A stretch of DNA of 32,025 nucleotides from an uncultured Selenomonadales bacterium (GTDB lineage: Bacteria > Bacillota > Negativicutes > Selenomonadales > Selenomonadaceae). A program made the position numbers and the translations under genes. Shown one piece after another: positions 4,858 to 28,797 of the stretch (within the stretch, counting starts at the first letter, position 1; each line of letters opens with the position of its first letter). The notes beneath the pieces were generated by a model, which had not been told where the DNA came from, made no database searches, and was given only the letters and a program-made list of their open reading frames with translations. The DNA is taken from the NCBI GenBank assembly GCA_947165295.1, contig CAMUZU010000025.1:1-32025 (forward strand), read 5' to 3'.

Positions 4858-4934
4858 CGGCCGTCATGGAGTGAATGTGCGCTGGTAAGCATTCACGGCC
4901 GCCGCGATTGACTTTCCACGCGGAAAGAAAGTAG
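4858..4934 (+). repeat. Three-hairpin intergenic element, decayed copy R1
   Basis: Starts 23 bases after the stop of gene A1. The outer CGGCCG arms (4858 and 4896) are kept, but the inside is replaced by another inverted repeat: GTGAATG at 4871-4877 pairs with CATTCAC at 4890-4896. The TACA/TGTA hairpin is missing. Only five base pairs of the third hairpin remain (CTTTC, loop CACGCG, GAAAG), although its right arm continues as GAAAGAAAGTAG. Confidence 0.6.
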
Positions 4935-5148
4935 ATCAACACGAATCAGCCGACTCGAAGCGACGACGCAACGTCAACCGAAGCGACGGTAAACCGGCCG
5001 TCATGGATGACGGCCGCAACCGCTTGCGCGTGATACAGGATGTATCACAGCAAGCGCGTCTTTCTTTGCTACTTTCTTTCCACGCGGAAAGAAAGTAGAT
5101 TCAACACGAATCAGCCGACTCGAAGCGACGACGCAACGTCAACCGAAG
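4912..5148 (+). repeat. 72-bp direct repeat with an intervening element
   Basis: Positions 4912-4983 and 5076-5148 are identical except for one extra T in the second copy. The unit begins in the third hairpin (CTTTCCACGCGG) and runs through the non-hairpin flank ending ACCGAAG. The element plus about 49 bp of its downstream flank therefore appears to have been duplicated in tandem. Confidence 0.88.
4994..5098 (+). repeat. Three-hairpin intergenic element, copy R2 (forward)
   Basis: Hairpin 1 has arms CGGCCGTCAT and ATGACGGCCG around GG (to 5016). Hairpin 2 is 5021-5056: outer arms CGCTTGC and GCAAGCG enclose TGATACA-GGA-TGTATCA. Hairpin 3 is 5069-5098: a perfect 12-bp stem CTACTTTCTTTC and its complement around CACGCG. 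No gene overlaps it. Confidence 0.88.
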
Positions 5149-5199
5149 AAGCGGCCGTCGACAAGCTCATCAACCAACTTTACCGAAGGAGTGTTTATC

Positions 5200-6027
5200 A
5201 TGAAGTTCACAAAGAAATTCGCGGCGTGTTTGACTGCATTGCTGTTCGTGCTTGCGACGGCGGCGGTCTTTGCGGCGGAAGGCACGACCGACTGGGGCAC
5301 CGGCGTCATTCGCGTCACCGGCAACGGCGTCGGCAAGGCGAAGTACAAAAACAATCCCGGTCAATATCGCTTGACGGCGCAACAGGCGGCGCGCATGGAC
5401 GCTCAACGCAAGCTTGCCGAATATGTCAGCGGTGTGCAAGTGACCGCCAATTCCTCAATGCACGACCTTGCTTTGGAAGACGACAGAGTCAATACAATGC
5501 TTAAATCCGTCGTGCTCAAAAATGCCATTGACGTCGGCGCACCGCAATTCTTCGACGACGGTGTCTGCACGATTACCATGGAACTGCACATGTACGGCGG
5601 CAACAACTCCGTGGCGGCGGCGGCGTTCATACCGTTCAAAGACGATCTGAAAGTTGACTTCCCGAAACCCGTCAACGCGACCGTCGTCAATCAAACTTAC
5701 ACGGGACTTGTCATCGATTGCCGCGGCATGAACATCAATCCCGTCATGAGCCCGGTCATCAAAAACGCGGACGGCACGAAGATTTACGGTCACCAAAACC
5801 TTGACATCGACAAAATTATCGCCAAAGGCATGGCGGCTTACTCTTCCGACGCTTACGATCAAATCAGTCAACAACGCGCCGGCTCCAATCCGCTGGTTAT
5901 CAAAGCCGTGCGCCTCGACGACATCAACGCGAACCCCGTCATTTCCGTTGCCGACGCGGACAAAGTTCTTGCCGCAAACAGCCAAAGCAAATTCCTCGAC
6001 AACTGCGCGGTCGTCTTCCTTAAGTAA
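5200..6027 (+). CDS. Exported LPP20-like protein (gene B)
   Basis: 275 residues. The ATG at 5200 is chosen over a GTG at 5191 because AAGGAG (5186-5191) then lies eight bases upstream. A signal peptide (KFTKKFAACLTALLF to VFAA) precedes a segment VIRVTGNGVGKA, then QQAARMDAQRKLAEYVSGV. This combination is typical of the LPP20/Tpn50-like domain of the family named after a Helicobacter outer-membrane lipoprotein. A second block, GLVIDCRGMNINPVMSP followed by KIYG, is the C-terminal half seen in longer members. As in its neighbours there is no lipobox. It starts a tightly packed run reaching 13452 and is the only copy of its family here. The molecular role of the family is not established; an envelope-assembly role is inferred from the context. 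Confidence 0.65.
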   Translation: MKFTKKFAACLTALLFVLATAAVFAAEGTTDWGTGVIRVTGNGVGKAKYKNNPGQYRLTAQQAARMDAQRKLAEYVSGVQVTANSSMHDLALEDDRVNTMLKSVVLKNAIDVGAPQFFDDGVCTITMELHMYGGNNSVAAAAFIPFKDDLKVDFPKPVNATVVNQTYTGLVIDCRGMNINPVMSPVIKNADGTKIYGHQNLDIDKIIAKGMAAYSSDAYDQISQQRAGSNPLVIKAVRLDDINANPVISVADADKVLAANSQSKFLDNCAVVFLK

Positions 6028-6042
6028 AGCGGAGGTCTCGGC

Positions 6043-7017
6043 ATGAAGAAATTTCTGTTGCTTGTGCTGATTTTGACGGCGGTGACGTTGCCCGTTCGTG
6101 CCGAACAGAGTGCCGCCGAAGAGTATCGGCAAATGTTTCGTTCGGGTAACTTTTACGTCGAATATCGATTCATCGTTCCGAACAAGCTCACGAACGCATT
6201 TGTCGGCAGCAAAATCAGTTCGCCGAAATTCACGTTGGCGGGTCAAAACGGCAACCGTATGCAACGAATCACCGTCGACAAACAGACAAGCGACTTTTGG
6301 AAATATTACGGCGACCAAGTAAAAATTTCGTCGATATATCTTGCCGCGCAGTCGAACATCAACCGCACGAATATTCAATACGCCAATCACAGTCGAGGCT
6401 TTTTCGGCACATCGGAAAAGAAACATCCCGACGCGCTTTTCCGTGACGGCAAGTATTACCGCTTCCGCAAAGTGAACGAAATCGTTGACAAGTCGACAAT
6501 TTACGGCTCCGACGGCACGGTCTACGGCAAAGTTTTGGCGCAGGAAAATTTGAATTCGCCGACGCTCAATCAAGACGACGAGTGGAATTACATCCGCGAA
6601 GATTTAAGCTTGCCCGACGAGCTGGCGGTTTTCTGTTGGGACGAACCTTTTCGCAACAACTTCACCGCCGCGCCCGTATATGTCGAAAGTTCCAAGCTCA
6701 CAATCGACAAAAAGGAATACGACTGCGACCGATACGTTGCCGACATAAAAAGTTTGGCGGGCACGGTCATTGCGCAGGAAGCGTATAACATGCTTTACGA
6801 CGGCGGCAAACTCGTTCGCGTGCAAAAATATCTTCTGCGCGACGGCAAGGAATTTCTCAACAGCGATTTAATCGTGCACACGATTTCCGCGCAAGCTCCC
6901 GACGAAGCTTTTGCCGTCAAAAGGAAGTTCAAACTCTACGAAGCGCGCAAAGGCGACATGAACGACTTAATCAATCAGCTTGAACAAATCGGCGAGATCG
7001 GAGGCGCGGCGCAATGA
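6043..7017 (+). CDS. Exported protein of unknown function, family C (copy C1)
   Basis: 324 residues, GGAGG upstream of ATG. It has a cleavable signal peptide (MKKFLLLVLILTAV to VRAE). I recognise no known family. The mature start EEYRQMFRSGNFYVEY matches the start of the other C and D proteins (general form YrxxLxxGxFxxxY), so all four are probably one superfamily. Its partner at 11079 shares LSLPDELAVF, EYDCDRY and GDMNDL. The aromatic-rich beta pattern would suit a LolA-like or lipocalin-like periplasmic carrier, but that is only a guess. It overlaps the next gene by four bases (ATGA), indicating coupled translation. It is about 55 residues longer than its paralogue, the extra length being in the N-terminal half. 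Confidence 0.7.
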   Translation: MKKFLLLVLILTAVTLPVRAEQSAAEEYRQMFRSGNFYVEYRFIVPNKLTNAFVGSKISSPKFTLAGQNGNRMQRITVDKQTSDFWKYYGDQVKISSIYLAAQSNINRTNIQYANHSRGFFGTSEKKHPDALFRDGKYYRFRKVNEIVDKSTIYGSDGTVYGKVLAQENLNSPTLNQDDEWNYIREDLSLPDELAVFCWDEPFRNNFTAAPVYVESSKLTIDKKEYDCDRYVADIKSLAGTVIAQEAYNMLYDGGKLVRVQKYLLRDGKEFLNSDLIVHTISAQAPDEAFAVKRKFKLYEARKGDMNDLINQLEQIGEIGGAAQ

Positions 7018-7838
7018 AACTGAAACTCTTAACGATGCTTGCCGTTGTCGTCTTGCTCTTTGCCGAAGCCGAAGCCGCAAAGTCCGACGTGTACCGCGAC
7101 ATGCTTTCAAACGGGCACTTCACCTTGAAATACACGATAACCGAGCCGCCCGTTCGTGTGACGAACAAGGAAGCGACGCTCACCGAAACAAGCATGTTCG
7201 GCAGATTCGACATGACGGACACAAGTGCCGCCAAAACCCGCGCCATGACCAATTACCGAGGCATTGTCGTCTGTGACGGCGCAAACAAATACACTGAATA
7301 TCTCGACCCGATTAACGAAGGTTGGATTTGTTGCGTCCTGCGAAAGAACAATCTGACTTACCGCTACCGTTACGCAACCGACGGCAAGAAGACAATTTAC
7401 ATGTCCCGCTACGGCAAGAACGCGGTCATTGCCAACCTTGAAGAAGGTTTGGGCGAGTTGTCGCCGCGTTTCCTGCTCAACGAAGAATATTCTTACGGCA
7501 CGTCGTCGATAACCAAAGCTTTGATGCCGCTTACGCCGCCCGAAAAAATTATCGCCACGCCGTTCACGCCGGAATTTAAATTAATCGGCTCCGGCACGCT
7601 CGACGGCGGTTTGACTTACGATGATTTCTTCGGCAGCAAAAACGATTTCAACTGCGCGGTGCGTTATTACTTCAACGGCGACGCTTTGGTCAAGATTGCG
7701 CTGTTCGATTACGTCATGAGTGAAGGCAGCGTTCAATCTTACGAAAAGTGCGTGATAACCGTCGACGAATTTTCCGCGACGCCCGACCAAAATTATCTGC
7801 AGTTGCCCGCCGAACTCAAAGACAATACAAAGCGTTGA
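7014..7838 (+). CDS. Exported protein of unknown function, family D (copy D1)
   Basis: 274 residues; GGAGG at 7000-7004 inside the previous gene serves the ATG. Signal peptide MKLKLLTMLAVVVLLFAEAEA, then the family start VYRDMLSNGHFTLKY. The C-terminal third carries LDGGLTYDDFF, AVRYYFNGDALVKI and EFSATPDQNYLQLPAEL, all recognisable in the paralogue at 11878. No catalytic motif is evident. The alternating strand pattern suggests an all-beta domain. Position between C1 and E1 is mirrored exactly in the second block (C2-D2-E2), so the three products probably work together. Function unknown. Confidence 0.7.
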   Translation: MKLKLLTMLAVVVLLFAEAEAAKSDVYRDMLSNGHFTLKYTITEPPVRVTNKEATLTETSMFGRFDMTDTSAAKTRAMTNYRGIVVCDGANKYTEYLDPINEGWICCVLRKNNLTYRYRYATDGKKTIYMSRYGKNAVIANLEEGLGELSPRFLLNEEYSYGTSSITKALMPLTPPEKIIATPFTPEFKLIGSGTLDGGLTYDDFFGSKNDFNCAVRYYFNGDALVKIALFDYVMSEGSVQSYEKCVITVDEFSATPDQNYLQLPAELKDNTKR

Positions 7839-7848
7839 GGTGACCGAC

Positions 7849-8610
7849 ATGAAAACTTTTTTCGCGATTGTGGTGACGTTGATAATATGCGCGACTTCGA
7901 CGGCTTTTGCCGAAGAGTCAACTTGTATCATGCTCAAGTTCTCCAACGACACGCGTTACAAAAACGTCGATTCGGCCGCCGTGCTCTCCGAACTTGTCTT
8001 CGAGAAACTTTTGGCGACGGGCAAAGTCAACTTCAACGAAACCAAGCCGATTGACCAAGACATGGAAATTTTGCTTTACGACGAGAAGATGCGCGACGTA
8101 AACAATCTGCAAAAATCAATCGCGCAAGGAAACTTCAACGCTCTGTTTGAAAGCGGCAACTTCGATTCCAAACACGCTCAATCCGTCGCCACCGCTCAAG
8201 TCGGGCAAATCGTTTCGCCGTCGATAACGTCGGCAATAGGAAACGCTCACGGTGCGCAATATCTGATTCAAGGCACGGTGATAAATCTCGGTCAAGGCAA
8301 CTTTTCGGGCAACTTCGACACGACAACATCCGGCAGCAGAGGCGGCTTTTATTTCTATCGCAAGGAAGCGGCCGTCGGCGTTACGGTTGCCCTGCGCATA
8401 ATCCGCGCCGAAACGGGCGAAGTCGTTTGGGCAAAGGACGTCAGCGCGCAGAAAAAAACCGCCTTGACACAAGTCGGCATGTTCATGGTCGGCACGGCAA
8501 AAATTTCGACGGACATGTATTCCGAAATGATGGACACCGCCGCGACGAAAATCGTTGATGCGCTCGTTTCCGACCCGGACGCCCACCGACTGATTATGAC
8601 AGCCCGATGA
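7849..8610 (+). CDS. Exported CsgG-like protein (copy E1)
   Basis: 253 residues. The ATG at 7849 is preferred over a GTG at 7840 because GAGGTGA (7837-7843) then acts as the ribosome binding site, exactly as in the paralogue at 12664. The signal peptide ends TAFA-EE. The domain resembles CsgG/LpoB: a first strand CIMLKFSNDTR, a helix with SELVFEKLLATGKVNF, then AHGAQYLIQGTVINLG, LRIIRAETGEVVWAKDV and a C-terminal helix AATKIVDALV. Compared with the A-type genes it carries an insert of about 50 residues (around residues 70-125) containing SVATAQVGQIVSPSITSAIG, which is well conserved in E2. There is no lipobox. It overlaps the next gene by four bases (ATGA). Confidence 0.68.
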   Translation: MKTFFAIVVTLIICATSTAFAEESTCIMLKFSNDTRYKNVDSAAVLSELVFEKLLATGKVNFNETKPIDQDMEILLYDEKMRDVNNLQKSIAQGNFNALFESGNFDSKHAQSVATAQVGQIVSPSITSAIGNAHGAQYLIQGTVINLGQGNFSGNFDTTTSGSRGGFYFYRKEAAVGVTVALRIIRAETGEVVWAKDVSAQKKTALTQVGMFMVGTAKISTDMYSEMMDTAATKIVDALVSDPDAHRLIMTAR

Positions 8611-9206
8611 AAACTTTGTTGACAATCTGCGCGGTGATTTTGTTGACGGCTCAAGTTGCCTTCGCCGCGACGATTGAAAGAGGCGCGACCGTTGCCGTGA
8701 CTGATTTGGGCGTTCACAGCGGCACAAGCGACCCCGACGTCAACTTACTCAACGCCGAAGCCGCCTCAAGCGAATACGTCATTGCCCGCCTTGTCGCCAC
8801 GAATAATTTCGACGTCAAAGATCGCAGTCTTGTTTACGAAGCGTTGAAAAGTTTGAACATGCTCGGCTTGATTGACCCCGACGGCGCGAAAAAAATCGGC
8901 GAAGTTCTGAACGTGCGGTATCTGGTTTACGGCAATGTCACGGACGTTTCAATCGCCGTCGAAAAAGCTTTGGTCAACGTCACGACCGTCAAAGCGCATA
9001 TCGTCCTGCGGATAATGGACGTCGACACGGGCAAGATTTTAACGGCGGCTCGCGGTGAAGGCTCTTCGGCAAGTTCGCTTGTCGGCGACGAAAATTTTTT
9101 CTACATCGGCACGGCGAAGGTCACGCAAACGGCGGTTCACAACGCACTGCAGAAAGCGGCCTTTCAAGCGGTCGACATCTTAAACGAACGGCTTTTTAAG
9201 AGGTGA
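8607..9206 (+). CDS. Exported CsgG/LpoB-like protein (copy A2)
   Basis: 199 residues; translation is probably coupled to E1 through the ATGA overlap. It has a signal peptide MKTLLTICAVILLTAQVAFAA, then ATVAVTDLG, ASSEYVIARLV, KDRSLVYEALKSL, AKKIGEVLNVRYLVYGNVTD, HIVLRIMDVDTGKILTA and ALQKAAFQAVDILNERL. It is clearly paralogous to the gene at 4199, including at DNA level near the 3' end (GCACTGCAGAA shared). It lacks the N-terminal Cys of true CsgG. It ends within the ribosome binding site of the next gene. It could serve as an envelope adaptor or assembly factor; this is inference from family membership only. Confidence 0.7.
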   Translation: MKTLLTICAVILLTAQVAFAATIERGATVAVTDLGVHSGTSDPDVNLLNAEAASSEYVIARLVATNNFDVKDRSLVYEALKSLNMLGLIDPDGAKKIGEVLNVRYLVYGNVTDVSIAVEKALVNVTTVKAHIVLRIMDVDTGKILTAARGEGSSASSLVGDENFFYIGTAKVTQTAVHNALQKAAFQAVDILNERLFKR

Positions 9207-9211
9207 GAATT

Positions 9212-10273
9212 TTGTTCTCGGCAAAAAATTTTTTCGCGACTTTGGCCGCGATTTTTTTCTTGACGACATCGGCCAATGCGCAGGTCGTCACGGTTCAAGG
9301 CAGCGGGCTCAACGAAGACGCCGCGATTAAAGCCGCCAAACGCGCAGCAGTCGAAGCGGTCGTCGGCACGCTGATTCAATCGCGGGCAATGTCGCTTGAT
9401 TCGGAATTGGTCTTCGACGCGGTTCAATCGCGCACACAAGGTTACGTGACAAGTTGCGAAGTCGTCGACAAAACTTCGAGCGGCGGACTGATTTTCGTCA
9501 CTGCGCGAATTGACGTTGCCGACACGCCAGACTCCGCGCTCATGAAGGACGTCGAACTTGTCATGACGCTCAACGATCCGCGACTCGGCGTTGTTGTCGA
9601 ACATTACGGCGACGACGGCGGCGAAACTTTCAAGAAACATTCCGTGCAAGTCGAGGCGGTCATTCGCGAAGAATTAATCAAGCGCGGCTTCACTCACGTT
9701 GTCGACGCACGCGGCGAAGTCGATTTCGTCATCGTCGGACAAATTTCCGTCGGCAAGGCGCAGGAAGTTCGTCTGCCCGATTGGCGAAACATTTCCGGCG
9801 GCGACTTCAAGACGCTTGACACGGGTCTTTCGCGTTCGACGGCAACGCTTGATTGCAAGCTCAAGAAATTCGACACGGACGAAGTCATCGGCGAATTCCG
9901 CAGTCAAAGCGACTCAACCGACGCGACGGGCAACGAAGTCACCGCGCAAACCGTCACGCAACTTGCCGCCGACGCCGCGACACAAGTTCGTTCGATTTTG
10001 AGCCGCGAGGCGTCGAAAGCTTTTTCAAGCGTGAAAATTATCGTGCACAGCTCCGACGGCGAAAAAATTCTTGCGCTTGAAGAAATTCTTCGCCAAACGC
10101 CGGGCGTTACAAGCGTTCACATGCGCACTTTCCGCAACAGTCAATGTATCGTCGACACGGGCACGGACTTGACGCCGCAGAATCTTTACCGCGCTTTGAT
10201 TCAAACGGCGGGCGACAAGTTTCCCGTGAAGCTGTCGGGCTTTTCGAGCGTCACGCTTGAAATTTCACTTTGA
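9212..10273 (+). CDS. Exported FlgT-N-like protein (gene F)
   Basis: 353 residues from a TTG at 9212, which lies five bases after GAGGTGA (9200-9206). A GTG at 9203 would fall inside that binding site. Signal peptide to SANA-Q. The mature start VVTVQGSGLNEDAAIKAAKRAAVEAVVGTLI is the signature of the N-terminal domain of FlgT-like proteins (flagellar H-ring component in Vibrio), which also occurs in non-flagellar envelope proteins. A middle region (VELVMTLNDPRLGVVVEHYGDDG, then EAVIREELIKRGFTHVVDA) has the look of a second FlgT/CsgG-like alpha/beta domain. No flagellar genes are in the window, so a flagellar role is unsupported. Single copy, at the centre of the cluster between A2 and G. Confidence 0.65.
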   Translation: MFSAKNFFATLAAIFFLTTSANAQVVTVQGSGLNEDAAIKAAKRAAVEAVVGTLIQSRAMSLDSELVFDAVQSRTQGYVTSCEVVDKTSSGGLIFVTARIDVADTPDSALMKDVELVMTLNDPRLGVVVEHYGDDGGETFKKHSVQVEAVIREELIKRGFTHVVDARGEVDFVIVGQISVGKAQEVRLPDWRNISGGDFKTLDTGLSRSTATLDCKLKKFDTDEVIGEFRSQSDSTDATGNEVTAQTVTQLAADAATQVRSILSREASKAFSSVKIIVHSSDGEKILALEEILRQTPGVTSVHMRTFRNSQCIVDTGTDLTPQNLYRALIQTAGDKFPVKLSGFSSVTLEISL

Positions 10274-10285
10274 CGAGGTGGCAAT

Positions 10286-11074
10286 ATGAAAAAAGTTTTT
10301 CTGCTTGCGACGGCAATAATTTTCTTCGCGACGAATCTTGTTTACGCGGCGACACCGATTAAGAATCACCCGCGAATTGCCGTGTGCGAGTTCGCGAACA
10401 AGGCGATAACCAGCGAAGGTTTCCGCGACCAAGATTATTCGAGCGCGACCGAATACGCGATTTATCAGCTGTCCGCCGCCGATTGGTTCGACTTGATTGA
10501 TTACGAGCAGATGGTCACCGTCGCACGAATGCACAGCATCAATCGTTCGGGTTTGTTTGACCCGTCGACCGTCCCGCAACTGGGCAAGTTTCTTGCGGCG
10601 GAATATATTCTTGTCGGCGCGCTCACCGGCATGACCGTCAAAGAAAGCGGCCTTAGCGTCGGCGGCGCGGGCGTTAAAGCGGGCGGCACGAAGTACACCG
10701 TCACCGCGAACGTTACGGTTCGTTTCGTCGACGTTGAAACGCTGAAAATTGTCGGCGTCGGCATGGGCACGGGAACTTCATCGTCAACGGCGGCGGAGAT
10801 TTCGTTTTCGCCCTTCCGCAACGCCGCGAACTGGATTATTCCGCGACAGACGAACATAATTATCGGCGACGGCAACACGGTCAACAACGGCGTCATTTCC
10901 ACGGGCGACACCTCCGGCGGCGAATACTTCGTCAAAATCGGCGCGGCTGAAGTTTCAATGGTTCAGGCACGCAACGCTTTAAGCAAGGCAATTCGCGACG
11001 CGGTTTACGGCGACATGGGCATTATCACCACGTTGAACGGCGGCAAGAAACTCAAAATCAAGACGGGGTTCTGA
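10286..11074 (+). CDS. Exported CsgG-like protein (gene G)
   Basis: 262 residues; GAGGTGG precedes ATG. Signal peptide to VYAA. The CsgG-type core is clear: PRIAVCEFANKAI, a helix with ATEYAIYQLSAADWFDLID, YEQMVTVARMHSINRSGLFDPSTVPQLGKFLAAEYILVGALTGMT, and VTVRFVDVETLKIVGVG. An insert with a Gly/Asn-rich stretch (about residues 170-215) interrupts the usual fold before the last helix (AEVSMVQARNALSKAIRDAVYG). Of the five CsgG-like proteins here it is closest in layout to a typical CsgG, including the long loop after the central strand where CsgG places its membrane segment. It nevertheless lacks a lipobox. Only five bases separate its stop from the next start. Confidence 0.68.
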   Translation: MKKVFLLATAIIFFATNLVYAATPIKNHPRIAVCEFANKAITSEGFRDQDYSSATEYAIYQLSAADWFDLIDYEQMVTVARMHSINRSGLFDPSTVPQLGKFLAAEYILVGALTGMTVKESGLSVGGAGVKAGGTKYTVTANVTVRFVDVETLKIVGVGMGTGTSSSTAAEISFSPFRNAANWIIPRQTNIIIGDGNTVNNGVISTGDTSGGEYFVKIGAAEVSMVQARNALSKAIRDAVYGDMGIITTLNGGKKLKIKTGF

Positions 11075-11078
11075 AGTC

Positions 11079-11888
11079 ATGAAGACACTTTTGTTGACGC
11101 TGATAATTTTGTTGACGAGTTCAATCGTTCACGCCGAACAGCCTCAAGCGCAGGTTTATCGACAAATTCTTTCGTCGGAAACTTTTTACGTCGAGTACGA
11201 CGACAACAACGTCAAGCGAATCGTCGCGCAGGAAAACAACCGTCGCATGGCGCGCACGAATTTGGGCGGCACGTATCGGGCGATTGTCTCCGTGTTGAAT
11301 CCGCTGGGAAATTTTTTGGCGAGCGAAAACGAGAAGTTCCCCGAATTCATGTACGCGAACGGCAAATATTTTAAGTTCATCGAAAAAGATTTCGCGTTGA
11401 TGTTGCGCGCTGAACAGCTTGCCGACGAGAATTTGAATCCCGCCGAAGGTTGGGGCACGATTTACGAATCGCTGTCCTTGCCGAACGAGCTTGCGGTTTT
11501 CAACTGGCACGACAGATTTCACAAAGTACCCGACGCGTTAAGTGAGCCGGTCTTCGTCGCGAGCATGAAAAAATCCGTCGGCGGCACCGAGTACGACTGC
11601 GACCGTTACGAATCCAAAATCACCAACGCGGACGGCACTCAAGCGGCGACGGTTGTTTTCGACATGTGTTACGCGGGCGGTAACCTTGCGCTTGCTCAAT
11701 CGGCACTTTTGGCGGGCGGGCGCGAATACGAGATCAATCGCCTTGTCGTCAAGAAAATTCTTCCGAGCGTGCCGAGCGGCGGCTTCAAGCTCAACGGCAA
11801 CGAAAAAGTTCACGCGGCGGGCACGGGCGACATGAACGACCTGCTTGAAGACCCGCCCTTTGTCGGGAGGCTGAGCGATGTCTTGTAA
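11079..11888 (+). CDS. Exported protein of unknown function, family C (copy C2)
   Basis: 269 residues. Signal peptide MKTLLLTLIILLTSSIVHA, mature start AQVYRQILSSETFYVEY. It matches C1 in ESLSLPNELAVFNWHDRF (C1: DLSLPDELAVFCWDEPF), TEYDCDRYESKI and GTGDMNDLL, with a shorter N-terminal half. Overall similarity to C1 is modest, so the block duplication is old. It overlaps the next gene by 11 bases. No known function; inferred to act with D2 and E2 in the periplasm or at the outer membrane. Confidence 0.68.
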   Translation: MKTLLLTLIILLTSSIVHAEQPQAQVYRQILSSETFYVEYDDNNVKRIVAQENNRRMARTNLGGTYRAIVSVLNPLGNFLASENEKFPEFMYANGKYFKFIEKDFALMLRAEQLADENLNPAEGWGTIYESLSLPNELAVFNWHDRFHKVPDALSEPVFVASMKKSVGGTEYDCDRYESKITNADGTQAATVVFDMCYAGGNLALAQSALLAGGREYEINRLVVKKILPSVPSGGFKLNGNEKVHAAGTGDMNDLLEDPPFVGRLSDVL

Positions 11889-12654
11889 AAAAATCTTTCT
11901 GCTTGTGTTGATGATTCTGTCGGTGAGCGCGCAGGTTCACGCGGCGAAGATTGACGCTTACCAAAAAATTCTTGACGGCGGCCGATACACAATTCGCTAC
12001 GAAAACTTCACGCCCGCCGAACGCGTCACCAACCGCAATGTCGTCGAACTTTACGGCAAGAACGGTTTGGCGGTCGAGACTAATGACTTCTTTCGCAACA
12101 GGCCGTTGAGCGGCGTGGTTGTCGGCGACGGCGAAAATCGTTACGAGGAAGTCGGTTACAAAGATTTCTTTCAATGTCGACTGGTCACGGGCGGCGAAAA
12201 CTTCATCTTCACGAAGTACGCGGGCAAGCGCGGCTTTGAATATTTCGGCGACAAGAAAGGCAAAGTCACCGCCAACCCGCGCAATTACATGATCGAGATG
12301 TTGAGCGGCGTGACGTTCGGCGACGTGAACTTTACCGAAATGATGACAGCCATTGTTTCCGACGCGAAGAAAACTTCCGCGCAGAAAAAATACAAACTCA
12401 TGGCGAGCGGCACGACGTCCGACGGTTTGACTTACGAGGACTTCGCTTCGCGTGACGGAGCGGTTGTAAGCGCGATTCGATATCTGTTCGACGGCGACAC
12501 TTTGACGAAAATTTCTTTCGCGGCTTACGGGCGAAACGAATTCGGCGAACTGAAAGCCCGCCGTTGTATTGTGAAGATTGTCGAGTTCAGCGCGTCGCCC
12601 GACCAAAATCTTTTGCGCCTGCCCGCCGGTCTTGTCGACGTTACGAAACGTTGA
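11878..12654 (+). CDS. Exported protein of unknown function, family D (copy D2)
   Basis: 258 residues starting inside the end of C2; GGGAGG about ten bases upstream. Signal peptide MSCKKIFLLVLMILSVSAQVHA; the Cys at position 3 precedes the hydrophobic core and is not a lipobox. Mature start AYQKILDGGRYTIRYEN follows the C/D family pattern. The C-terminal third (TSDGLTYEDFASRDG, AIRYLFDGDTLTKI, EFSASPDQNLLRLPAGLVD) aligns closely with D1, making this the best conserved part and perhaps the functional one. Family unknown. Confidence 0.68.
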   Translation: MSCKKIFLLVLMILSVSAQVHAAKIDAYQKILDGGRYTIRYENFTPAERVTNRNVVELYGKNGLAVETNDFFRNRPLSGVVVGDGENRYEEVGYKDFFQCRLVTGGENFIFTKYAGKRGFEYFGDKKGKVTANPRNYMIEMLSGVTFGDVNFTEMMTAIVSDAKKTSAQKKYKLMASGTTSDGLTYEDFASRDGAVVSAIRYLFDGDTLTKISFAAYGRNEFGELKARRCIVKIVEFSASPDQNLLRLPAGLVDVTKR

Positions 12655-12663
12655 GGTGACGAC

Positions 12664-13452
12664 ATGAAAAAATTTTTCGCGACGTTGCTTGCGTGCATGT
12701 TGACGGCGTCAATCTGCGCGGCGAACCCGACATGCGTGTTGATGAAGTTCACCGACGACACGCGCTTTGACAAAATCGATTCGGCGGCGAGCCTGTCCGA
12801 TTTGGTCATGGAGAAACTTATCGCGTGCAAGAAGTTCAACCTAATGGAGACGCGCCCGCTTGACGAGGACATCGAGACGAAACTTTACAACGAAAATCTG
12901 CGCGAGCTGAATTATTTGCTTACGGCCATTGACACGGGCGACTTTAATCCGCTGTTTGACGGCTTCGACGAAAGTAAGGCGCAGTCAATCGCCGCGTCGC
13001 AGGTCGGTCAAACAATTTCGCCCGAAATTACGTCGGCTATCGGTCAAGCGCACGGAGCCGAATACCTGATTCAAGGCACGATTATCAACCTTGGCACGGG
13101 TGCTTGGTGGACGGAAGACTACGAGGCGTTAAGCGGTGCCACTAACTTCGCGACGGCGGCTTTGGCTTCGGCGATACCGCTTGGCGATTTCGTCGGCGGC
13201 GTCGACATCGGCAAGACCGGTATCGGCGTGCAATGCGACATCCGAATCATCAAGGCGGCGACGGGCGAAGTCGTTTGGTCGCGGCGCGTCGTCGGCGTCA
13301 ACGAACAAGTCAGCTTGGATATCGGATTGATTTCAATCGGCAACCGCAAACTCAACGGCAACTTGTACGCCAAAGCAATGAACACCGCCGCGCAAAAAAT
13401 CGTCGACGCTCTGCTTGCGGACATGTCGGCGGGCAAACTGTTCACGCGTTAA
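12664..13452 (+). CDS. Exported CsgG-like protein (copy E2)
   Basis: 262 residues; GAGGTGA nine bases before ATG overlaps the stop of D2. Signal peptide MKKFFATLLACMLTASICAAN, then CVLMKFTDDTRFDKIDSAASLSDLVMEKLIACKKFNLMETRP, the conserved insert IAASQVGQTISPEITSAIGQAHGAEYLIQGTIINLG, IRIIKAATGEVVWSRRV, and a last helix AAQKIVDALLADM. A hydrophobic Ala/Gly-rich stretch (AALASAIPLGDFVGG) replaces the Phe/Tyr-rich loop of E1. Last gene of the cluster; an extended -10 promoter for the next gene follows within 40 bases, so the transcript probably ends or is re-initiated here. Confidence 0.68.
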   Translation: MKKFFATLLACMLTASICAANPTCVLMKFTDDTRFDKIDSAASLSDLVMEKLIACKKFNLMETRPLDEDIETKLYNENLRELNYLLTAIDTGDFNPLFDGFDESKAQSIAASQVGQTISPEITSAIGQAHGAEYLIQGTIINLGTGAWWTEDYEALSGATNFATAALASAIPLGDFVGGVDIGKTGIGVQCDIRIIKAATGEVVWSRRVVGVNEQVSLDIGLISIGNRKLNGNLYAKAMNTAAQKIVDALLADMSAGKLFTR

Positions 13453-13533: not shown

Positions 13534-14484
13534 ATGTTCAAGAAAATCTTTACGTTGCCGGTGTTAATGTGTCTGTTTTTATTCGGCGGACATGTCGACG
13601 CAAAAAAATTTCCTGCGCCTTACCCGACGGGCGAACAGGAACTCATGGACTTTGCGCAACTGTATCCGACGTATTCTTGGTTGCCCATGCCGCACACGGA
13701 ATTTTATCAAGTGCAGGTCGTCAAAGTTGAAGACGTGCGCGACAAGATTGTCCGCGAACTTTACAACGACGAAGCTTTCGATCGTGCGACGGATTGGACG
13801 CCCATGACCGAAGTCGGCAAGTATTATTGGCAAGTGCGCGTCGTCGACAAGAAGCACAAGCCGCTGAGCGATTGGTCGCAGAAAAAATTTTTCGAGGTGA
13901 CTGCGCCCGTCACGTTCGCCGTTTTGGGTGACAGCATTTCTCACGGCGGCGCATCATATGTTCCGGCGGGGCAGTTGTCGTGTCAGTGGCAAACGTATTG
14001 CTCCGTGCCCGTGAAAAATCTTGCGCGAAGCGGCGACACAACGCAGATGATGCTTGACCGATTCGACAATGACATTCTGCCGTTCAAGCCGCAAGTTCTG
14101 CTGATTATGGGCGGAGTCAACGACATTCGACTCGGCAGCAAAAGCGACGCCGTCATAAAAAATCTTGAAGCGATTCGCGACAAATGTCTTGCCAACGACA
14201 TAACGCCCGTTTTCTGCACGTTGACTTCAATGGTGCCCGACATCATGAAACCGCTTGGCATTCACTTGACCGACGGCGACTGGCGCGAGGAACGCGAAGA
14301 AATCAACGGCTGGATAATGCGCACGCCGTACTTTGTCGACACCGCCGAACCGCTCACCGACGCGCAAGGTTATCTTCGCGCCGAATTGACGCCCGACGGA
14401 CTTCACCCGGCACTTCGCGGCAAAATGATTATCGGCGAGACAATCGGCAATTATCTGCGCAAAAATTTCGCGGACAAGCTTTGA
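13534..14484 (+). CDS. Exported SGNH/GDSL-family hydrolase
   Basis: 316 residues; ATG at 13534 with GGAGG at 13521-13525. An N-terminal signal peptide (FKKIFTLPVLMCLFLFGGHVDA) leads to an Ig-like beta region (about residues 20-125: YSWLPMPHTEFYQVQVV, YYWQVRVVDKKHKPLSDWS). The catalytic SGNH domain follows: block I VLGDSISHGG with the nucleophile Ser, a Gly region in LARSGDTTQM, block III GGVNDIR with the Asn, and block V DGLHP with the catalytic Asp and His. Such enzymes are esterases or acylhydrolases acting on lipids or on acetyl groups of polysaccharides. Export suggests a cell-wall or extracellular substrate. The substrate cannot be predicted. It has its own promoter and is followed by hairpin element R3. 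Confidence 0.85.
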   Translation: MFKKIFTLPVLMCLFLFGGHVDAKKFPAPYPTGEQELMDFAQLYPTYSWLPMPHTEFYQVQVVKVEDVRDKIVRELYNDEAFDRATDWTPMTEVGKYYWQVRVVDKKHKPLSDWSQKKFFEVTAPVTFAVLGDSISHGGASYVPAGQLSCQWQTYCSVPVKNLARSGDTTQMMLDRFDNDILPFKPQVLLIMGGVNDIRLGSKSDAVIKNLEAIRDKCLANDITPVFCTLTSMVPDIMKPLGIHLTDGDWREEREEINGWIMRTPYFVDTAEPLTDAQGYLRAELTPDGLHPALRGKMIIGETIGNYLRKNFADKL

Positions 14485-14497
14485 CGCGAACGAAAAT

Positions 14498-14605
14498 CCG
14501 GCCGTCATGGATGACGGCCGCCGTCGCCCGTCGCACGATACAGGATGTATCGTAGCGGGCGCAGCTTTCTTTGGTTACTTTCTTTCGCTGCCGAAAGAAA
14601 GTAAC
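14498..14605 (+). repeat. Three-hairpin intergenic element, copy R3 (forward)
   Basis: Begins 14 bases after the hydrolase stop. Hairpin 1: 14498-14520 (CGGCCGTCAT/ATGACGGCCG). Hairpin 2: outer arms CGCCCG (14525) and CGGGCG (14556) around CGATACA-GGA-TGTATCG; the T:A pair closing this stem in other copies is C:G here. Hairpin 3: 14574-14605, a perfect 14-bp stem GTTACTTTCTTTCG with loop CTGC. It may also end the upstream transcript, although no U-tract follows. Confidence 0.88.
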
Positions 14606-18458: not shown

Positions 18459-18563
18459 GTTACTTTTCTTTGGCGGCAAAGAAAAGTAACCAAAAGAAAC
18501 CGCGCTTGCTGTGATACATCCTGTATCACGCGCAAGCGTTGCGGCCGTCATCCATGACGGCCG
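18459..18563 (-). repeat. Three-hairpin intergenic element, copy R4 (reverse)
   Basis: Reverse orientation relative to R2. Hairpin 3: 18459-18490, stem GTTACTTTTCTTTG with loop GCGG. Hairpin 2: arms CGCTTGC (18503) and GCAAGCG (18532) around TGATACA-TCC-TGTATCA. Hairpin 1: 18542-18563. It lies directly after hyaC. Confidence 0.88.
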
Positions 18564-18597
18564 GTTGTGACGCGACACGTTGCTTGAAAAAAATTTT

Positions 18598-21323: not shown

Positions 21324-21338
21324 GGCGGTGACGCGGCT

Positions 21339-22651: not shown

Positions 22652-22658
22652 AAAACCT

Positions 22659-22687: not shown

Positions 22688-22712
22688 GTTTGCGTCAAAG
22701 GAGGCCTTTTAT

Positions 22713-23414: not shown

Positions 23415-23415
23415 C

Positions 23416-24216: not shown

Positions 24217-24218
24217 AC

Positions 24219-24322
24219 GTTACTTTTCTTTTGGCGCAAAAGAAAAGTAACCAAAAGAAAACAGCCCGCGTTAATGCATCCTGCATTAAGGCGCGGGCGG
24301 CGGCCGTCATCCATGACGGCCG
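24219..24322 (-). repeat. Three-hairpin intergenic element, copy R5 (reverse)
   Basis: Hairpin 3: 24219-24251, a perfect 15-bp stem with loop GCG. Hairpin 2: arms GCCCGCG (24264) and CGCGGGC (24292) around TTAATGCA-TCC-TGCATTAA. Here the core TGATACA/TGTATCA of other copies has changed on both sides with pairing kept. Hairpin 1: 24301-24322. It lies between two convergent genes. Confidence 0.88.
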
Positions 24323-24336
24323 GTGTTACGTCGCGG

Positions 24337-25200: not shown

Positions 25201-25274
25201 CAACTCACCTCAGAAAAAATTTTCGTCAAGTCTACAGGAATTGCCCGCCGTCGACAACAAAAAATTTTTCGACG

Positions 25275-25283
25275 TGGTATAAT
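25275..25283 (+). promoter_or_regulatory. Extended -10 promoter for the TVP38/TMEM64 gene
   Basis: TGGTATAAT lies 36 bases before the ATG at 25320, identical to the element at 13491. A -35 box is not obvious at the normal distance. Confidence 0.6.
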
Positions 25284-25319
25284 GTCGCCGCTTGATTTTT
25301 TCACGAGGAATGATTTTCT

Positions 25320-25985
25320 ATGTTCAAAGTCAAAATCGTCGCCGCCCTGTTAATCGTCGCGCTGTTCGGGACGATTCACCTTGTCGCGCCCGAATTCTTG
25401 CCGGAAGTTTGTGCGCTTTTGGCACGCGGTGACATCGTCGAGACGGCAAATTACATCGCGAGCTACGGTTCGTTGGCGGTCGTGTTCAGCTTCCTGTTGA
25501 CGCTGTTTGTGAACGCAATCGGCTTCCCGCCCGCGATAATCTTTTCGACGGCGAACACGCTGATTTTCGGTATCGTGCCGGGAATTGTCCTGTCGGTCGT
25601 GGCGGAGACCGTCGGCGTGACGATCAGTTTCCAGCTGCTGCGATTTTTTTTCCGCGACAGCGCACGCAAGATTATCGCCAAAAGTCAAAAGCTAAGCTCA
25701 ATCGACAAGTACAGCTCCAAAAACGGCTTCAAGGTCATGTTAATTGCGCGAATGGTGCCGTACATCCCCAGCGGAATTTTGAACGCGGCGGGCGCGTTGA
25801 GTTCGTTGAGTTTGCGCGACTATTTTCTGGCGTCGCTTGTCGGAAAGTTCCCGTCGACGAGCATTGAGGCGATAATCGGTCACGACGCGATTTTGCACGA
25901 AGAAGGTTATTGGCGAATCGTCATTTCGGTGATTTTGGCGATTGTGCTGATTGTTTGGGCGTGGAAGTTCGGCGACAAACATTGA
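25320..25985 (+). CDS. TVP38/TMEM64 (VTT/DedA-type) inner-membrane protein
   Basis: 221 residues with about five to six hydrophobic segments: the N-terminal KIVAALLIVALFGTIHLV, GSLAVVFSFLLTLFVNAIG, the following Ala/Ile-rich re-entrant region FPPAIIFSTANTLIFG, IVLSVVAETVGVTISF, and a final VISVILAIVLIVWAW. The diagnostic VTT-domain block is MLIARMVPYIPSGILNAAGALSSLSLRDYFLASLVGKFPS, with the conserved R, P and N/G residues. Family members are lipid-related membrane transporters or scramblases; the substrate here is unknown. GAGGAAT precedes the ATG. The lipoprotein gene starts 11 bases after its stop, so the two are probably cotranscribed from the promoter at 25275. Confidence 0.88.
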   Translation: MFKVKIVAALLIVALFGTIHLVAPEFLPEVCALLARGDIVETANYIASYGSLAVVFSFLLTLFVNAIGFPPAIIFSTANTLIFGIVPGIVLSVVAETVGVTISFQLLRFFFRDSARKIIAKSQKLSSIDKYSSKNGFKVMLIARMVPYIPSGILNAAGALSSLSLRDYFLASLVGKFPSTSIEAIIGHDAILHEEGYWRIVISVILAIVLIVWAWKFGDKH

Positions 25986-25996
25986 CGGAGGTTGCC

Positions 25997-26671
25997 ATGA
26001 AAAAATTTTTTGTCGGCACGGTGACGGCGTGTCTTTTGCTGACGGGTTGCGGTGACGACGAATCCAAAGTTGTCGACAAGCCGACCGTCGACAAGCCGCC
26101 CGAAGTCGTTCAGCATGAACCGTCGCATGTCCGCCGCGAAGTTTCCGACCAAAGTTCCGACACGCCGACGAACGTTTACATGAATCGCTTGACCGCCAAC
26201 TACGACAAACGAAACTACCGCGAGGCCGTTTCTGACGCCGACGAAGTCATACGCACCGAGCCGACGAACATTGACGCGCACATTTATCGCGGCTACGCTT
26301 ACAGCACGTTGGGCAATTATCGCGCCGCCGTCGCCGACTTCACCAAAGTTCTTGAACTTGACCCGAAAAATCTTGACGCGTACTTCGGGCGCGGTGTTGC
26401 GCTTGCCAACTTGGGCGATTATAATAACGCCGTCGCGGACTTCGACAAGTTAATCGCGCTCAATCCGCTTGACGTCGACAATTACGAAAGCCGCGGGATG
26501 ATTTACGGCAACATGGGCGAATTCGACAAAGCTCTTGCGGACTTCGACACGGTCATTGAACTGCGCCCGACCGTCGAGGCGTATCAGCAGCGCGCAAAAT
26601 GTCACGAAGCTCTCGGCGACAACGACAAAGCTCAAGCGGACTTGGCAAAAGCCCGCGAGCTGTCTCAATGA
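25997..26671 (+). CDS. TPR-repeat lipoprotein
   Basis: 224 residues; ATG at 25997 with GGAGG at 25987-25991. The signal sequence ends in a lipobox LLTGC (Cys about residue 18), so the protein is predicted to be lipid-anchored. A Lys/Pro/Val linker (about 25-60) contains a doubled KVVDKPTVDKPPEVV segment. About four tetratricopeptide repeats follow (for example DAHIYRGYAYSTLGNYRAAVADFTKVLELDP and DNYESRGMIYGNMGEFDKALADFDTVIELRP), each with the usual Tyr/Gly/Ala/Pro pattern. Such repeats hold protein partners, here presumably periplasmic. This is the only true lipobox protein seen on the plus strand, in contrast to the CsgG-like cluster. Confidence 0.88.
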   Translation: MKKFFVGTVTACLLLTGCGDDESKVVDKPTVDKPPEVVQHEPSHVRREVSDQSSDTPTNVYMNRLTANYDKRNYREAVSDADEVIRTEPTNIDAHIYRGYAYSTLGNYRAAVADFTKVLELDPKNLDAYFGRGVALANLGDYNNAVADFDKLIALNPLDVDNYESRGMIYGNMGEFDKALADFDTVIELRPTVEAYQQRAKCHEALGDNDKAQADLAKARELSQ

Positions 26672-26689
26672 AGTTTGGAGGTTTGTATC

Positions 26690-26890
26690 ATGAAGAAATT
26701 TCTGTTCGGCTTTTTGACCGCCGTGATGATGTTCGGTTTCGGCAACTTTGCTCAAGCGAGCGACGTTGACTTTGAAAACATGTGCTGCCGCGGCGGCTAC
26801 TACTGCGCGTCGGACAACAGCGGCGAATACTGCTACAACAGCGGCGAATACTGCGGACGCTACGGTTGCGGCAACGGTTATCGTCGCTGA
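26690..26890 (+). CDS. Small exported cysteine-rich peptide
   Basis: 66 residues; ATG at 26690 after TTTGGAGG. The signal peptide MKKFLFGFLTAVMMFGFG to AQA is about 23 residues. The predicted mature peptide is about 43 residues with six Cys (CC, then four single Cys), many Tyr and Gly, and a repeated SGEYC element. Six Cys in a short secreted peptide suggests three disulfides or metal binding. No family is recognised. It follows the TPR lipoprotein by 18 bases and is probably in the same transcript. Its length and composition would let it be missed by routine gene calling. Element R6 and a terminator follow. Confidence 0.7.
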   Translation: MKKFLFGFLTAVMMFGFGNFAQASDVDFENMCCRGGYYCASDNSGEYCYNSGEYCGRYGCGNGYRR

Positions 26891-26910
26891 CGAAAAATCG
26901 CCGTGCGTAA

Positions 26911-27016
26911 CCGGCCGTCATGGATGACGGCCGCGCCGCCTGCGCGTGATACACGATGTATCACAGCAGGCGCAGTTTCTTTTGGTTACTTTTCTTTGCT
27001 GCCAAAGAAAAGTAAC
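26911..27016 (+). repeat. Three-hairpin intergenic element, copy R6 (forward)
   Basis: Hairpin 1: 26911-26933. Hairpin 2: arms GCCTGC (26938) and GCAGGC (26966) around TGATACA-CGA-TGTATCA; this is the only copy with CGA in the loop. Hairpin 3: 26985-27016, stem GTTACTTTTCTTTG, loop CTGC. It begins 20 bases after the Cys-rich gene. Confidence 0.88.
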
Positions 27017-27042
27017 ACAACGCGCAACGACAAAAAAAATTT

Positions 27043-27069
27043 CCCGCCGAATGTTCGACGGGATTTTTT
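27043..27069. terminator. Bidirectional rho-independent terminator between convergent genes
   Basis: Stem CCCG...CGGG with an inner CGA/TCG pairing and loop ATGT, followed by ATTTTTT on the plus strand and preceded by AAAAAAAATTT (a T-run on the minus strand). It can end both the plus-strand lipoprotein/peptide transcript and the minus-strand PHP transcript. Confidence 0.75.
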
Positions 27070-27085
27070 GTGTTCAACTGTGCCG

Positions 27086-27919
27086 TTAATCGAATCTAAG
27101 GTTCAGACTTGACGAAAATTTCGCGGCAAGTTCGTCGCTAATCGTGAACTCTCCGAGCGACTTGACGAATCGTGAGGACGTGCCGTGAAAATCGCTGCCG
27201 CCGGTTATCATCAGATTGTGCTCTTCGGCGAGTGAAGAATAATACGCGACGTCTTCGGGACTGTGACACGGATAATAAACTTCAAGCCCGTCGACCTTGT
27301 TGCAAAGCGTCTCGACCAAGGCGTTGTCGCCGACAAGTTTCGGGTGAGCCAAAACCACTTTGCCGCCCGCACGGTGAATCACGTCGATAATTTCGTCGAC
27401 TTCGGGCAGGTAGCGTTCCACGTAAGCGGGTTGACCTTTGGCAAGCATCTTGTCGAAGGCCTCGCGAACGCTTTTGAACGCGCCGATTTTGACCAAAGCC
27501 CGCGCAATGTGCGCACGACCGATTGAACGACTTGTATCGGCGGTTTTGAGGATGTCCGTTTCGCGAATGGCGAATTTTTTGTCCTGCAAGGTTTTGACGA
27601 TTTGGCTGAAGCGTTCCCAGCGCGCCTCTTGAATCTTGTCAAGCATTTCAATCAGTGCGGCGTTGTACATGTCGATGTTGTAGCCGACCAGATGAACTTC
27701 CGAAGCGGGGTGGTTCGCGCTCAGCTCCACGCCGGGGATGATGTGTATGTTTCTGTCCGGCAGGTGGCCGTTTTCGTACAGGTGACGGACGCCGTCAACC
27801 GTGTCGTGATCGGTTATGCCCAAATAGTTCAGACCGATTTTTTTGGCCGCCGCAACGAGTTCTTCGGGCGCAAACGAGCCGTCGGAAAAACTTGTGTGCG
27901 TGTGCAAATCGCCGGCCAT
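27086..27919 (-). CDS. PHP-domain phosphoesterase (TrpH/YciV-like)
   Basis: 277 residues; GGAGG upstream of ATG. Metal-binding motifs of the PHP fold are seen in order: DLHTHTSFSDG (motif 1), LGITDHDTVDG (motif 2), PGVELSA, the central IDVIHRAGGKVVLAHP with a His ligand, and GGSDFHG near the C-terminus. An inserted helical segment (about residues 85-160) is typical of the family that includes the 3',5'-nucleotide bisphosphatase / 5'-3' exonuclease RNase AM. The substrate is probably a nucleotide phosphate or short RNA, inferred from the family. It lies downstream of spoVS by 66 bases on the same strand and may share its transcript. Confidence 0.88.
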   Translation of the reverse strand: MAGDLHTHTSFSDGSFAPEELVAAAKKIGLNYLGITDHDTVDGVRHLYENGHLPDRNIHIIPGVELSANHPASEVHLVGYNIDMYNAALIEMLDKIQEARWERFSQIVKTLQDKKFAIRETDILKTADTSRSIGRAHIARALVKIGAFKSVREAFDKMLAKGQPAYVERYLPEVDEIIDVIHRAGGKVVLAHPKLVGDNALVETLCNKVDGLEVYYPCHSPEDVAYYSSLAEEHNLMITGGSDFHGTSSRFVKSLGEFTISDELAAKFSSSLNLRFD

Positions 27920-27985
27920 TAACTTTACCTCCGTACCACGAGATTTTGTGATTGCTTTTAATTCAGGGTGAGTTTTGCCACGGAA

Positions 27986-28246
27986 TTAACGCGGTTCGAC
28001 AATAAGCTTGATTGCAGTGCGTTCGCTCCCGTCGATTTCGATGTCCGTGAAAGCGGGAATGCAGATGAGGTCTACGCCGTGCGGTGCCACGAAGCCGCGT
28101 GCAATGGCAACCGCTTTAACCGCTTGGTTCAGCGCTCCGGCACCTATCGCCTGCATCTCGGCACTTCCGGTTTCGCGGATGACTCCCGCGAGTGCGCCGG
28201 CGACGGAATTGGGGTTAGATTTGGCTGATACCTTTAGAATTTCCAT
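27986..28246 (-). CDS. spoVS: Stage V sporulation protein S (Alba-like)
   Basis: 86 residues, the normal family length, with GGAGGA before ATG. Start MEILKVSAKSNPNSVAGALAGVIRE and the central AIGAGALNQAVKAVAIARGFV are almost diagnostic. SpoVS is a small Alba-fold protein that affects septation and coat assembly in Bacillus spores, but it is also kept in many non-sporulating bacteria, so its presence does not prove sporulation. In many Firmicutes it follows rny and ymdB directly; here a transporter and a hairpin element lie in between. Confidence 0.97.
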   Translation of the reverse strand: MEILKVSAKSNPNSVAGALAGVIRETGSAEMQAIGAGALNQAVKAVAIARGFVAPHGVDLICIPAFTDIEIDGSERTAIKLIVEPR

Positions 28247-28797
28247 AACTGGTCCTCCTCCCTTGTTGCATTTTGGTGTTGTAGTGGTTTTCTACCTGCT
28301 GCGGCTCCTTCTGCGTCTAAAATATTTTCCTTGTTAATTCTTCACGCGCAGATTAAATCCTTCACTTTCTGCGACGGTTTGGACATATAATTTATTGTTG
28401 ACCCTGCGCTTGCATTGTCGGTCGACGATTGCGGCGTTGTCGCGTTGATTCGGCTTGTTCGTGAGTCTTGTTTAGTTGAACTACTTTTTCTTTGCTTGCC
28501 CAAAGAAAAAGTAGCAAAAAGAAAGGGCACCTCGCGGGGGCGTTGGTCGTTCGTCACCGAAATGTTGTCGGTACCGCGTGTCGCTCGTGCCCGCAGGTGA
28601 TACATCCTGTATCAACTGCGGGCGCGGCCGTCATCCATGACGGCCGGTTACCGTTGTGATTGACAATTAGTAATCTCCGCGGCAACATTTTACCTGTTCG
28701 TTGCTTTTTCTTCAATAGCGTGAATCCGCTGCGTTATCATGCGCTCATTTAAATTTGTTGGAGTTGATTTTTCCGAAGACGGCAGAATTCGTTGCTG
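28247..28797 (-). other. 551-bp intergenic region with hairpin element R7 and spoVS leader
   Basis: The part next to spoVS (28247-28480) must hold the spoVS promoter. On the minus strand it has AAGGAAAATATTTTA, but no unambiguous -10/-35 pair. Element R7 occupies 28481-28646. Positions 28650-28797 are AT-richer and hold no gene that I can support. An 87-codon minus-strand open frame at 28342-28605 runs through the hairpins and is judged spurious. Confidence 0.6.
28481..28646 (-). repeat. Three-hairpin intergenic element, copy R7 (reverse, with a 74-bp insert)
   Basis: Hairpin 3: 28481-28514, stem CTACTTTTTCTTTG with loop CTTGCC. Hairpin 2: arms GCCCGCAG (28589) and CTGCGGGC (28616) around TGATACA-TCC-TGTATCA. 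Hairpin 1: 28625-28646. About 74 bp separate hairpins 3 and 2, where other copies have only 12-20 bp. Confidence 0.85.

Follow-up and report, generated by a model that had tools for sequence, protein, structure and literature searches.

In telomerase RNA, the SAM-II riboswitch and similar riboswitches, an H-type pseudoknot places its loop 1 in the major groove of stem 2, and to our knowledge natural triple-helix pseudoknots are few and mostly single-copy. Here we describe a dispersed repeat whose third domain fits such a fold. It was found in a 32,025-nucleotide (nt) stretch, called the window below, of an uncultured Selenomonadales bacterium (GenBank assembly GCA_947165295.1, contig CAMUZU010000025.1, positions 1 to 32,025). 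The repeat also carries hairpins with GGA in the loop, the form taken by binding sites of CsrA and RsmA; this, and the prediction that the RNA family TwoAYGGAY (RF01731) binds CsrA, are given in the available part of PMC4333381.

The element is about 106 base pairs (bp) long and occurs as discrete units with sharp ends. It consists of a first hairpin with a GGA loop, a second hairpin and a third domain, and lies preferentially beside stop codons. The first-pass annotation of the window had listed seven copies in which three hairpins kept their order and their arms changed while staying complementary; all seven copies are real, and order and arms were as described. The most unusual part, the triple-helix pseudoknot, had been missed. 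Taken with the T-run that precedes it, the hairpin 3 region fits a pseudoknot with a matching third strand and not a simple stem. The copies, and the parts of the one at 26911, are as follows.

4857..4934, forward strand: partial, rearranged copy, in tandem duplication (period 137) with the 4994 copy, flank included
4994..5099, forward strand: intact element (hairpin 1, hairpin 2, pseudoknot)
14498..14605, forward strand: intact element, 13 nt past the stop codon of the gene at 13534-14484
18459..18565, reverse strand: intact element, between the stop codon of the hydrogenase cytochrome b gene (18452) and the terminator of that gene
24219..24323, reverse strand: intact element, between two convergent genes
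26911..27016, forward strand: intact element
26912..26933, forward strand: hairpin 1, with a CA-TGGA-TG loop (CsrA-like)
26937..26972, forward strand: hairpin 2
26973..26975, forward strand: 5' strand (CAG) of pseudoknot stem 1, whose partner CTG (26999-27001) lies in the loop of stem 2
26976..26984, forward strand: third strand TTTCTTTTG, parallel to the purine arm at 27004-27012
26985..27016, forward strand: pseudoknot stem 2, in which 26985-26997 pairs with 27004-27016
28481..28646, reverse strand: long form, with an extra segment between hairpin 2 and the pseudoknot

The copy at 4858 had been called decayed. It is partial and rearranged instead, with a different 3' part in its hairpin 1, and the tandem duplication, recognised by eye, covers 4849-5122 and holds this copy, the one at 4994 and their flank.

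Covariation in the third domain

In every intact copy of the window, the purine arm was matched in parallel by the T-run 5' of hairpin 3; examples are CTTTCTTTG with GAAAGAAAG, TTTTCTTTTG with AAAAGAAAAG and TTTCTTTTTG with AAAGAAAAAG. In the long form at 28481 the third strand TTTCTTTTT likewise matched its own purine arm AAAGAAAAA. Among 95 copies of the same genome, 85 could be parsed; the third strand was exact in 77 of them and had one extra T in the other 8. When all fetched loci were taken together, the run lengths of the third strand equalled those of the purine arm in 82 of 104 distinct sequences, compared with 22.7 ± 4.0 after permutation (maximum 38 in 5000). Half of these exact matches (41 of 82) came from symmetric arms, in which parallel and direct relations are indistinguishable. 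The 53 asymmetric stems comprised 41 exact parallel matches, 12 with one extra T and no direct match, so the relation is a mirror one and is not given by simple duplication. Along the third strand, T.A and C.G triples made up 472 of 502 positions (417 ± 5 when shuffled; 348 of 511 for the antiparallel arrangement). The third tract thus matches the purine tract of the duplex base by base, as an intrastrand triplex requires.

A second pairing was found between the bases directly 5' of the T-run and the hairpin loop (CAG/CTG, CGG/CCG, CGAG/CTCG, CGCGT/ACGCG, TGCC/GGCA and others). This stem 1 reached at least 4 bp in 35 of 57 combinations against 10.6 ± 2.8 after permutation (maximum 20 in 2000), and 31 types of at least 3 bp were present. 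By covariation, then, the loop of stem 2 is paired with the bases 5' of loop 1, as in an H-type pseudoknot. If loop 1 occupied the major groove of such a pseudoknot, all three pairing relations would be explained together, and the hairpin 3 region fits this fold. Shared descent alone is an unlikely source of the signal, given five run-length states and many stem types.

The element as a whole was evaluated on an alignment of 65 own copies, including one row of hairpin-2 type B (L016:2375) that had entered in error. Pairing was present in 97.2% of 2581 cells and dropped to 31-58% when the partners were slid. Cells changed on both sides numbered 214 compared with 62 in shuffled alignments, and the covariation score was 0.228 compared with 0.105.

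Copy number, distribution and genomic placement

The genome is a 2.49 Mb metagenome-assembled genome (MAG) of a rumen Selenomonadaceae in 110 contigs, 80% complete. For the hydrogenase protein, likeness was 97% to a Selenomonadaceae MAG from roe-deer rumen and 90-91% to Quinella sp. 1Q7, 2Q5 and 1Q5, and on this basis the genome is called probably Quinella. A whole-genome search showed that the copies are not confined to the window. The 12-base hairpin-1 core GTCATGGATGAC had 178 exact matches (97 forward, 81 reverse; reversed control 0) and the hairpin-2 core 76 sites (control 0), which excludes chance. Allowing up to two mismatches, the 20-base hairpin 1 gave 193 and 199 matches on the two strands, or about 196 sites if halved, because the near-palindrome matches both strands. 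The view of a dispersed, covarying intergenic family that lies beside stop codons is supported, and the family occurs in part of the genus.

Across 119 genomes searched with the same mismatch limit, hairpin 1 was present in the own genome and in 27 of 65 congeners, with 0 to about 150 sites (G062 highest). It was found in none of six genomes from other genera of the family, and in one of 47 further genomes of the class, once and with two mismatches. One exact variant of the third domain occurred in 9 of 300 class genomes (own included), in 3 of 97 genera. Third-domain-like DNA was also found in 21 plasmid records, from Burkholderia, Paraburkholderia, Pasteurella, Aeromonas, Pseudoalteromonas, Ilyobacter and Parabacteroides, at an E-value limit of 1 under which several matches (Ilyobacter, Pseudoalteromonas, Aeromonas) are weak by themselves. 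The stem 1 pairing was recognised by eye in Aeromonas (GTGGCC/GGCCAC), Pasteurella (TCGCC/GGCGA), Pseudoalteromonas (TGCC/GGCA) and Paraburkholderia (GCCGC/GCGGC) records, and with a shorter third strand in Ilyobacter (TCTTGAA/TTCAAGA) and Parabacteroides. A search of phages gave no match, and the Pseudoalteromonas element had no match in E. coli genomes. One viral contig of IMG/VR (L256, 324-365) contained the third-domain pattern; in this contig and in Burkholderia cepacia there was little or no stem 1 pairing. L287, L329 and Paraburkholderia plasmid records contained from 38 to at least 40 pseudoknot-like places per replicon, and a GGA hairpin was not evident upstream in the two that were read.

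The genomic context was determined for 95 copies, taken from the first 100 listed of the 178 exact hairpin-1 places (contigs C1 to C23, C23 in part, and the window), using gene calls from our own codon-score script. None of them lay inside a predicted gene. Relative to the element, the neighbouring genes were both sense in 35 cases, both antisense in 35, convergent in 18 and divergent in 3, and in 4 cases one neighbour was unknown; copies thus stood in both orientations among ordinary genes, an observation that speaks against integron attC sites, a further candidate considered. Since convergent and divergent junctions are roughly equal in number in any genome, the ratio of 18 to 3 is a real bias. 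A stop codon lay within 25 nt of 66 copies, in either orientation: 39 of 54 sense genes upstream and 31 of 53 antisense genes downstream ended within this distance, with 4 copies in both counts. In 7 entries the gene seems to end on a TGA within hairpin 1. Within the window, the earlier statement that copies mostly follow a stop codon by up to 25 bases held for four of the six intact ones (14498, 18459, 24219 and 26911) and failed, by predicted stops, for those at 4994 and 28481.

Placement between stop codon and terminator was evident only at the two sites read by eye. Stem 2 itself has no T-run 3' of it, unlike an intrinsic terminator, and that identity was rejected on this ground. A terminator scan gave 0/35 in the sense-sense class, where the positive control gave 30/44 with the wrong strand in 23/44; an earlier version had given 7/41 against 6/41 in the control. 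The flanks of the own copies (some 20 nt on the 5' side and 12 nt on the 3' side) were T-poor on the element strand, with 12-15% T in the two main classes compared with 23.5% overall, whatever the gene orientation.

Two other kinds of repetition were present in the window. Paralogous genes for short secreted proteins were clustered at 4199-13452 together with duplicated segments (repeats D9, D13 and D18), and a 27-nt tandem repeat of six copies was located at 2402-2616 within the 1628-4189 reading frame.

GGA hairpins, mobility and competing explanations

Hairpin 1 had been described as near-invariant, which is true only of copies selected by hairpin 1. Twenty copies without the exact core, picked by hairpin 2 (20 of 21 such places among 50 sites listed of the 76), varied in loop and stem, with the loops TGGA (5), CGGA (6), GGGA (1), AGGAC (7) and GGA (1). 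GGA was retained in all 20, while the stem, judged by eye, was altered on both sides. At 30 loci of nine genomes picked by the third domain alone, 28 were preceded by a hairpin that showed GGA within its loop or at the loop edge; GAT, with 23, was the triplet next in frequency. Hairpin 2 carried GGA in part of the copies and GTGAT (often) or CGA in others. Of 66 genus genomes, 59, among them the own genome, had a csrA gene, as did all 14 that were near-complete; in the own genome it was intact and adjacent to fliW. The GGA hairpin is presented here as a putative CsrA-binding site.

Evidence for mobility came from 30 pairs of own copies with at most one difference, in which identity stopped 0-6 nt outside the unit. 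At site 18459 the element was absent from all six congener loci compared (L191-L196), and site 26911 was without it in three congeners (L221, L223, L224) and held a different, longer one in L222 (G061). In more distant relatives, at L103, L118 and L143 (Selenomonas ruminantium), the hydrogenase cytochrome b gene was also followed by elements that share the three-part plan but differ in sequence, so this gene end may be a preferred location. No target-site duplication stood out among 115 own elements over 462 offset and length combinations (lengths 2-8), the best excess being 15 compared with 8.4 permuted, at length 2. No match to the RAYT/Y1 family (PF01797; RAYT, REP-associated tyrosine transposase; REP, repetitive extragenic palindrome) was found in the own genome (80% complete) or in the copy-rich G062 (98%) and G060 (94%); Y1 proteins were found in 7 of the 66 genus genomes, 6 of them over the cut-off.

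Thirty G062 elements with flanks (28 loci) were compared with 94 own elements, and five lay within 10 nt of an own element (L333/L013, L334/L012, L342/L066, L347/L011 and L358/L054, where only a single flank was homologous). A sixth pair, L344/L045, was 110 nt apart by script and had a common 3' flank by eye, and two further pairs with L354 mapped ambiguously. At all of these approximately six shared sites the orientation was equal, and hairpin 2 and the pseudoknot were of other types. The sites persisted with different contents, the outcome expected of gene conversion, although such pairs could also arise if elements inserted repeatedly at one place. Module exchange would account for whole-unit stem changes without G.U intermediates, and part of the compensatory change seen within one genome would therefore be exchange and not stepwise repair. 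Of the compensatory stem changes reported earlier, part looks like the exchange of whole modules between copies. In six own composite copies (L010, L025, L026, L033, L049 and L077) and in L222 (G061), most of the 5' arm of stem 2 was replaced by a common segment of about 95 nt, which in five of the six own copies (not L033) brings an extra short inverted repeat round GTGGAC, GTGGAT or similar.

Taken together, the sequence data support a modular and mobile element that contains a triplex pseudoknot. The reading we favour, at about even confidence, is that of a dispersed non-autonomous repeat that combines a GGA hairpin, a second hairpin and an H-type triplex pseudoknot, acts as a CsrA-binding module in mRNA 3' regions and is overwritten by conversion. 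A single strand would fold into the three domains, and the pyrimidine loop 1 would occupy the major groove of the 13-bp stem to form the triple helix. The element would be transcribed within mRNA 3' regions, where the GGA hairpin may bind CsrA and the pseudoknot could provide a compact, stable 3' domain. Copies would be spread by some enzyme and would then overwrite one another, through either template switching or gene conversion; this would account for the simultaneous change of entire hairpin modules.

Several observations weigh against this reading. The absence of orientation bias (35 vs 35) means that a sense-only 3' RNA role does not place the copies. Because csrA is nearly universal in the genus, no correlation with copy number is possible, and since no more than 27 of 65 congeners have hairpin 1, this form is dispensable to the host. 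Stem 1 had only 1-2 bp in 9 of 57 combinations and is therefore not universal, and the pseudoknot also occurs with no evident GGA hairpin (Paraburkholderia, viral contig L256). Only 14 of 2581 cells held G.U pairs, and 9 of these came from a single pair misaligned by MAFFT; such rarity is unlike the expectation from RNA-only selection. Two of the five alignment measures were no higher than in shuffles: pairs with change on both sides numbered 14 (reached in 81 of 500 shuffles) compared with 12.3, and further pair types 22 compared with 28.7. Because this alignment also served for drawing the structure, the slid control is biased in its favour, and the permutation tests ignore the relatedness of the sequences.

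GGA loops and the gene-3' position speak for an RNA level, whereas strand neutrality and rare G.U pairs speak for a DNA level. A selfish element acting as DNA, whose folded single strand is the substrate of a single-strand transposase or recombinase and whose stop-side sites merely tolerate insertion, is a credible if doubtful account. Single-strand transposition is expected to leave no target-site duplication, in agreement with the scan, and the T-poor flanks and the variation from 0 to about 150 copies among congeners point the same way as the missing orientation bias. However, after the searches of the own genome and G062 this account lacks a known enzyme of the required type, the conserved GGA loop looks like a site of RNA-protein contact, and module change at kept sites requires an added process. 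It is quite improbable that the copies form a genome-wide CsrA sponge, transcribed to titrate CsrA and tune the CsrA-FliW circuit, with their spread favoured by the host. The GGA loops with CA..TG closure, the intact csrA beside fliW and an above-threshold match to TwoAYGGAY, the predicted CsrA binder, in the Pseudoalteromonas plasmid element (L293) suit it, but antisense copies would present UCC and not GGA, hairpin 2 often has GTGAT, and 38 of 65 congeners, nearly all with csrA, lack a hairpin-1 match (other hairpin-1 sequences not counted). Ordinary REPs moved by a RAYT, or a miniature inverted-repeat transposable element (MITE) of a classical insertion sequence, would suit the high copy number, palindromic form and gene-3' position, which REPs share in the available part of PMC3733652, and Y1 proteins do occur in some congeners, but this origin is very improbable and already largely refuted, the MITE by the duplication scan, and the RAYT-mobilised REP by the PF01797 search, which covered an own genome 80% complete, and by the absence of an unpaired GTAG/CGTC tag from the base profile of either end (the element terminates in GTAAC in 72% and GTAG in 27%, with these bases paired in stem 2).

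Comparison with known systems

BOX elements of Streptococcus pneumoniae are a modular intergenic repeat in which we know of no pseudoknot; the likeness to the present element is by description and not by sequence comparison. REPs, the bacterial interspersed mosaic elements (BIMEs) and their RAYTs resemble it in being short, palindromic, intergenic, biased to gene 3' ends and of high copy number. They differ in that the own genome has no RAYT match, the element has no unpaired tetranucleotide tag, and its three-part fold includes a pseudoknot.

The first-pass annotation had recognised no named family. Hairpins 1 and 2 nevertheless resemble Rfam TwoAYGGAY in related elements, although the window copies all scored below the Rfam gathering threshold of its covariance model. 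None of the 66 genus genomes exceeded the threshold and 6 had weaker matches (stricter filters, at most 35 candidates scored per genome). The Pseudoalteromonas plasmid element passed with 51.3 bits against a threshold of 43, its pseudoknot lying about 20 nt further 3', and the Aeromonas plasmid element reached 41.5 bits, below the threshold, about 55 nt 5' of its pseudoknot. Both families have adjacent hairpins, here with GGA in the loop of hairpin 1 and in part of the copies of hairpin 2, whereas our element has no visible enclosing outer stem and its hairpin 2 often has no GGA. TwoAYGGAY was multi-copy in another Negativicutes family (L299-L328). Five genomes of a single genus there had 137-180 first-look candidates apiece, and 8-10 of the 10 scored per genome matched. 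None of the 30 TwoAYGGAY loci fetched by the model carried the pseudoknot, and the hairpins and the pseudoknot are therefore separable modules.

In the open-licence papers searched, as far as their text was available, we found no bacterial repeat with such a pseudoknot and no description of a GGA hairpin combined with a triple-helix pseudoknot; the BRE repeat of Betaproteobacteria is given without sequence in the available text of PMC3110155 and is not comparable. A cross-phylum class of mobile structured elements, in which triplex pseudoknots and GGA hairpins would form CsrA-binding, exonuclease-resistant modules behind hundreds of genes, homogenised by module swaps, is an improbable extension. 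The element may link intergenic repeats to the CsrA network, and it offers an orphan mobile element for study. Its many natural variants allow triplex covariation to be read and would make it easy to study by experiment which triplex rules apply in cells. Intrastrand triplex motifs (ITxF; Holder et al. 2015, available part of PMC4666352) share with it three consecutive triplex-capable tracts dispersed between genes, but they are G/C-rich and of the purine type, whereas the third strand here is pyrimidine and parallel and its loop is knotted by a second covarying stem. In its proposed fold the element is like the pseudoknots of telomerase RNA, SAM-II and similar riboswitches, and it differs from them in having no known ligand or enzyme and in being repeated many times and dispersed.

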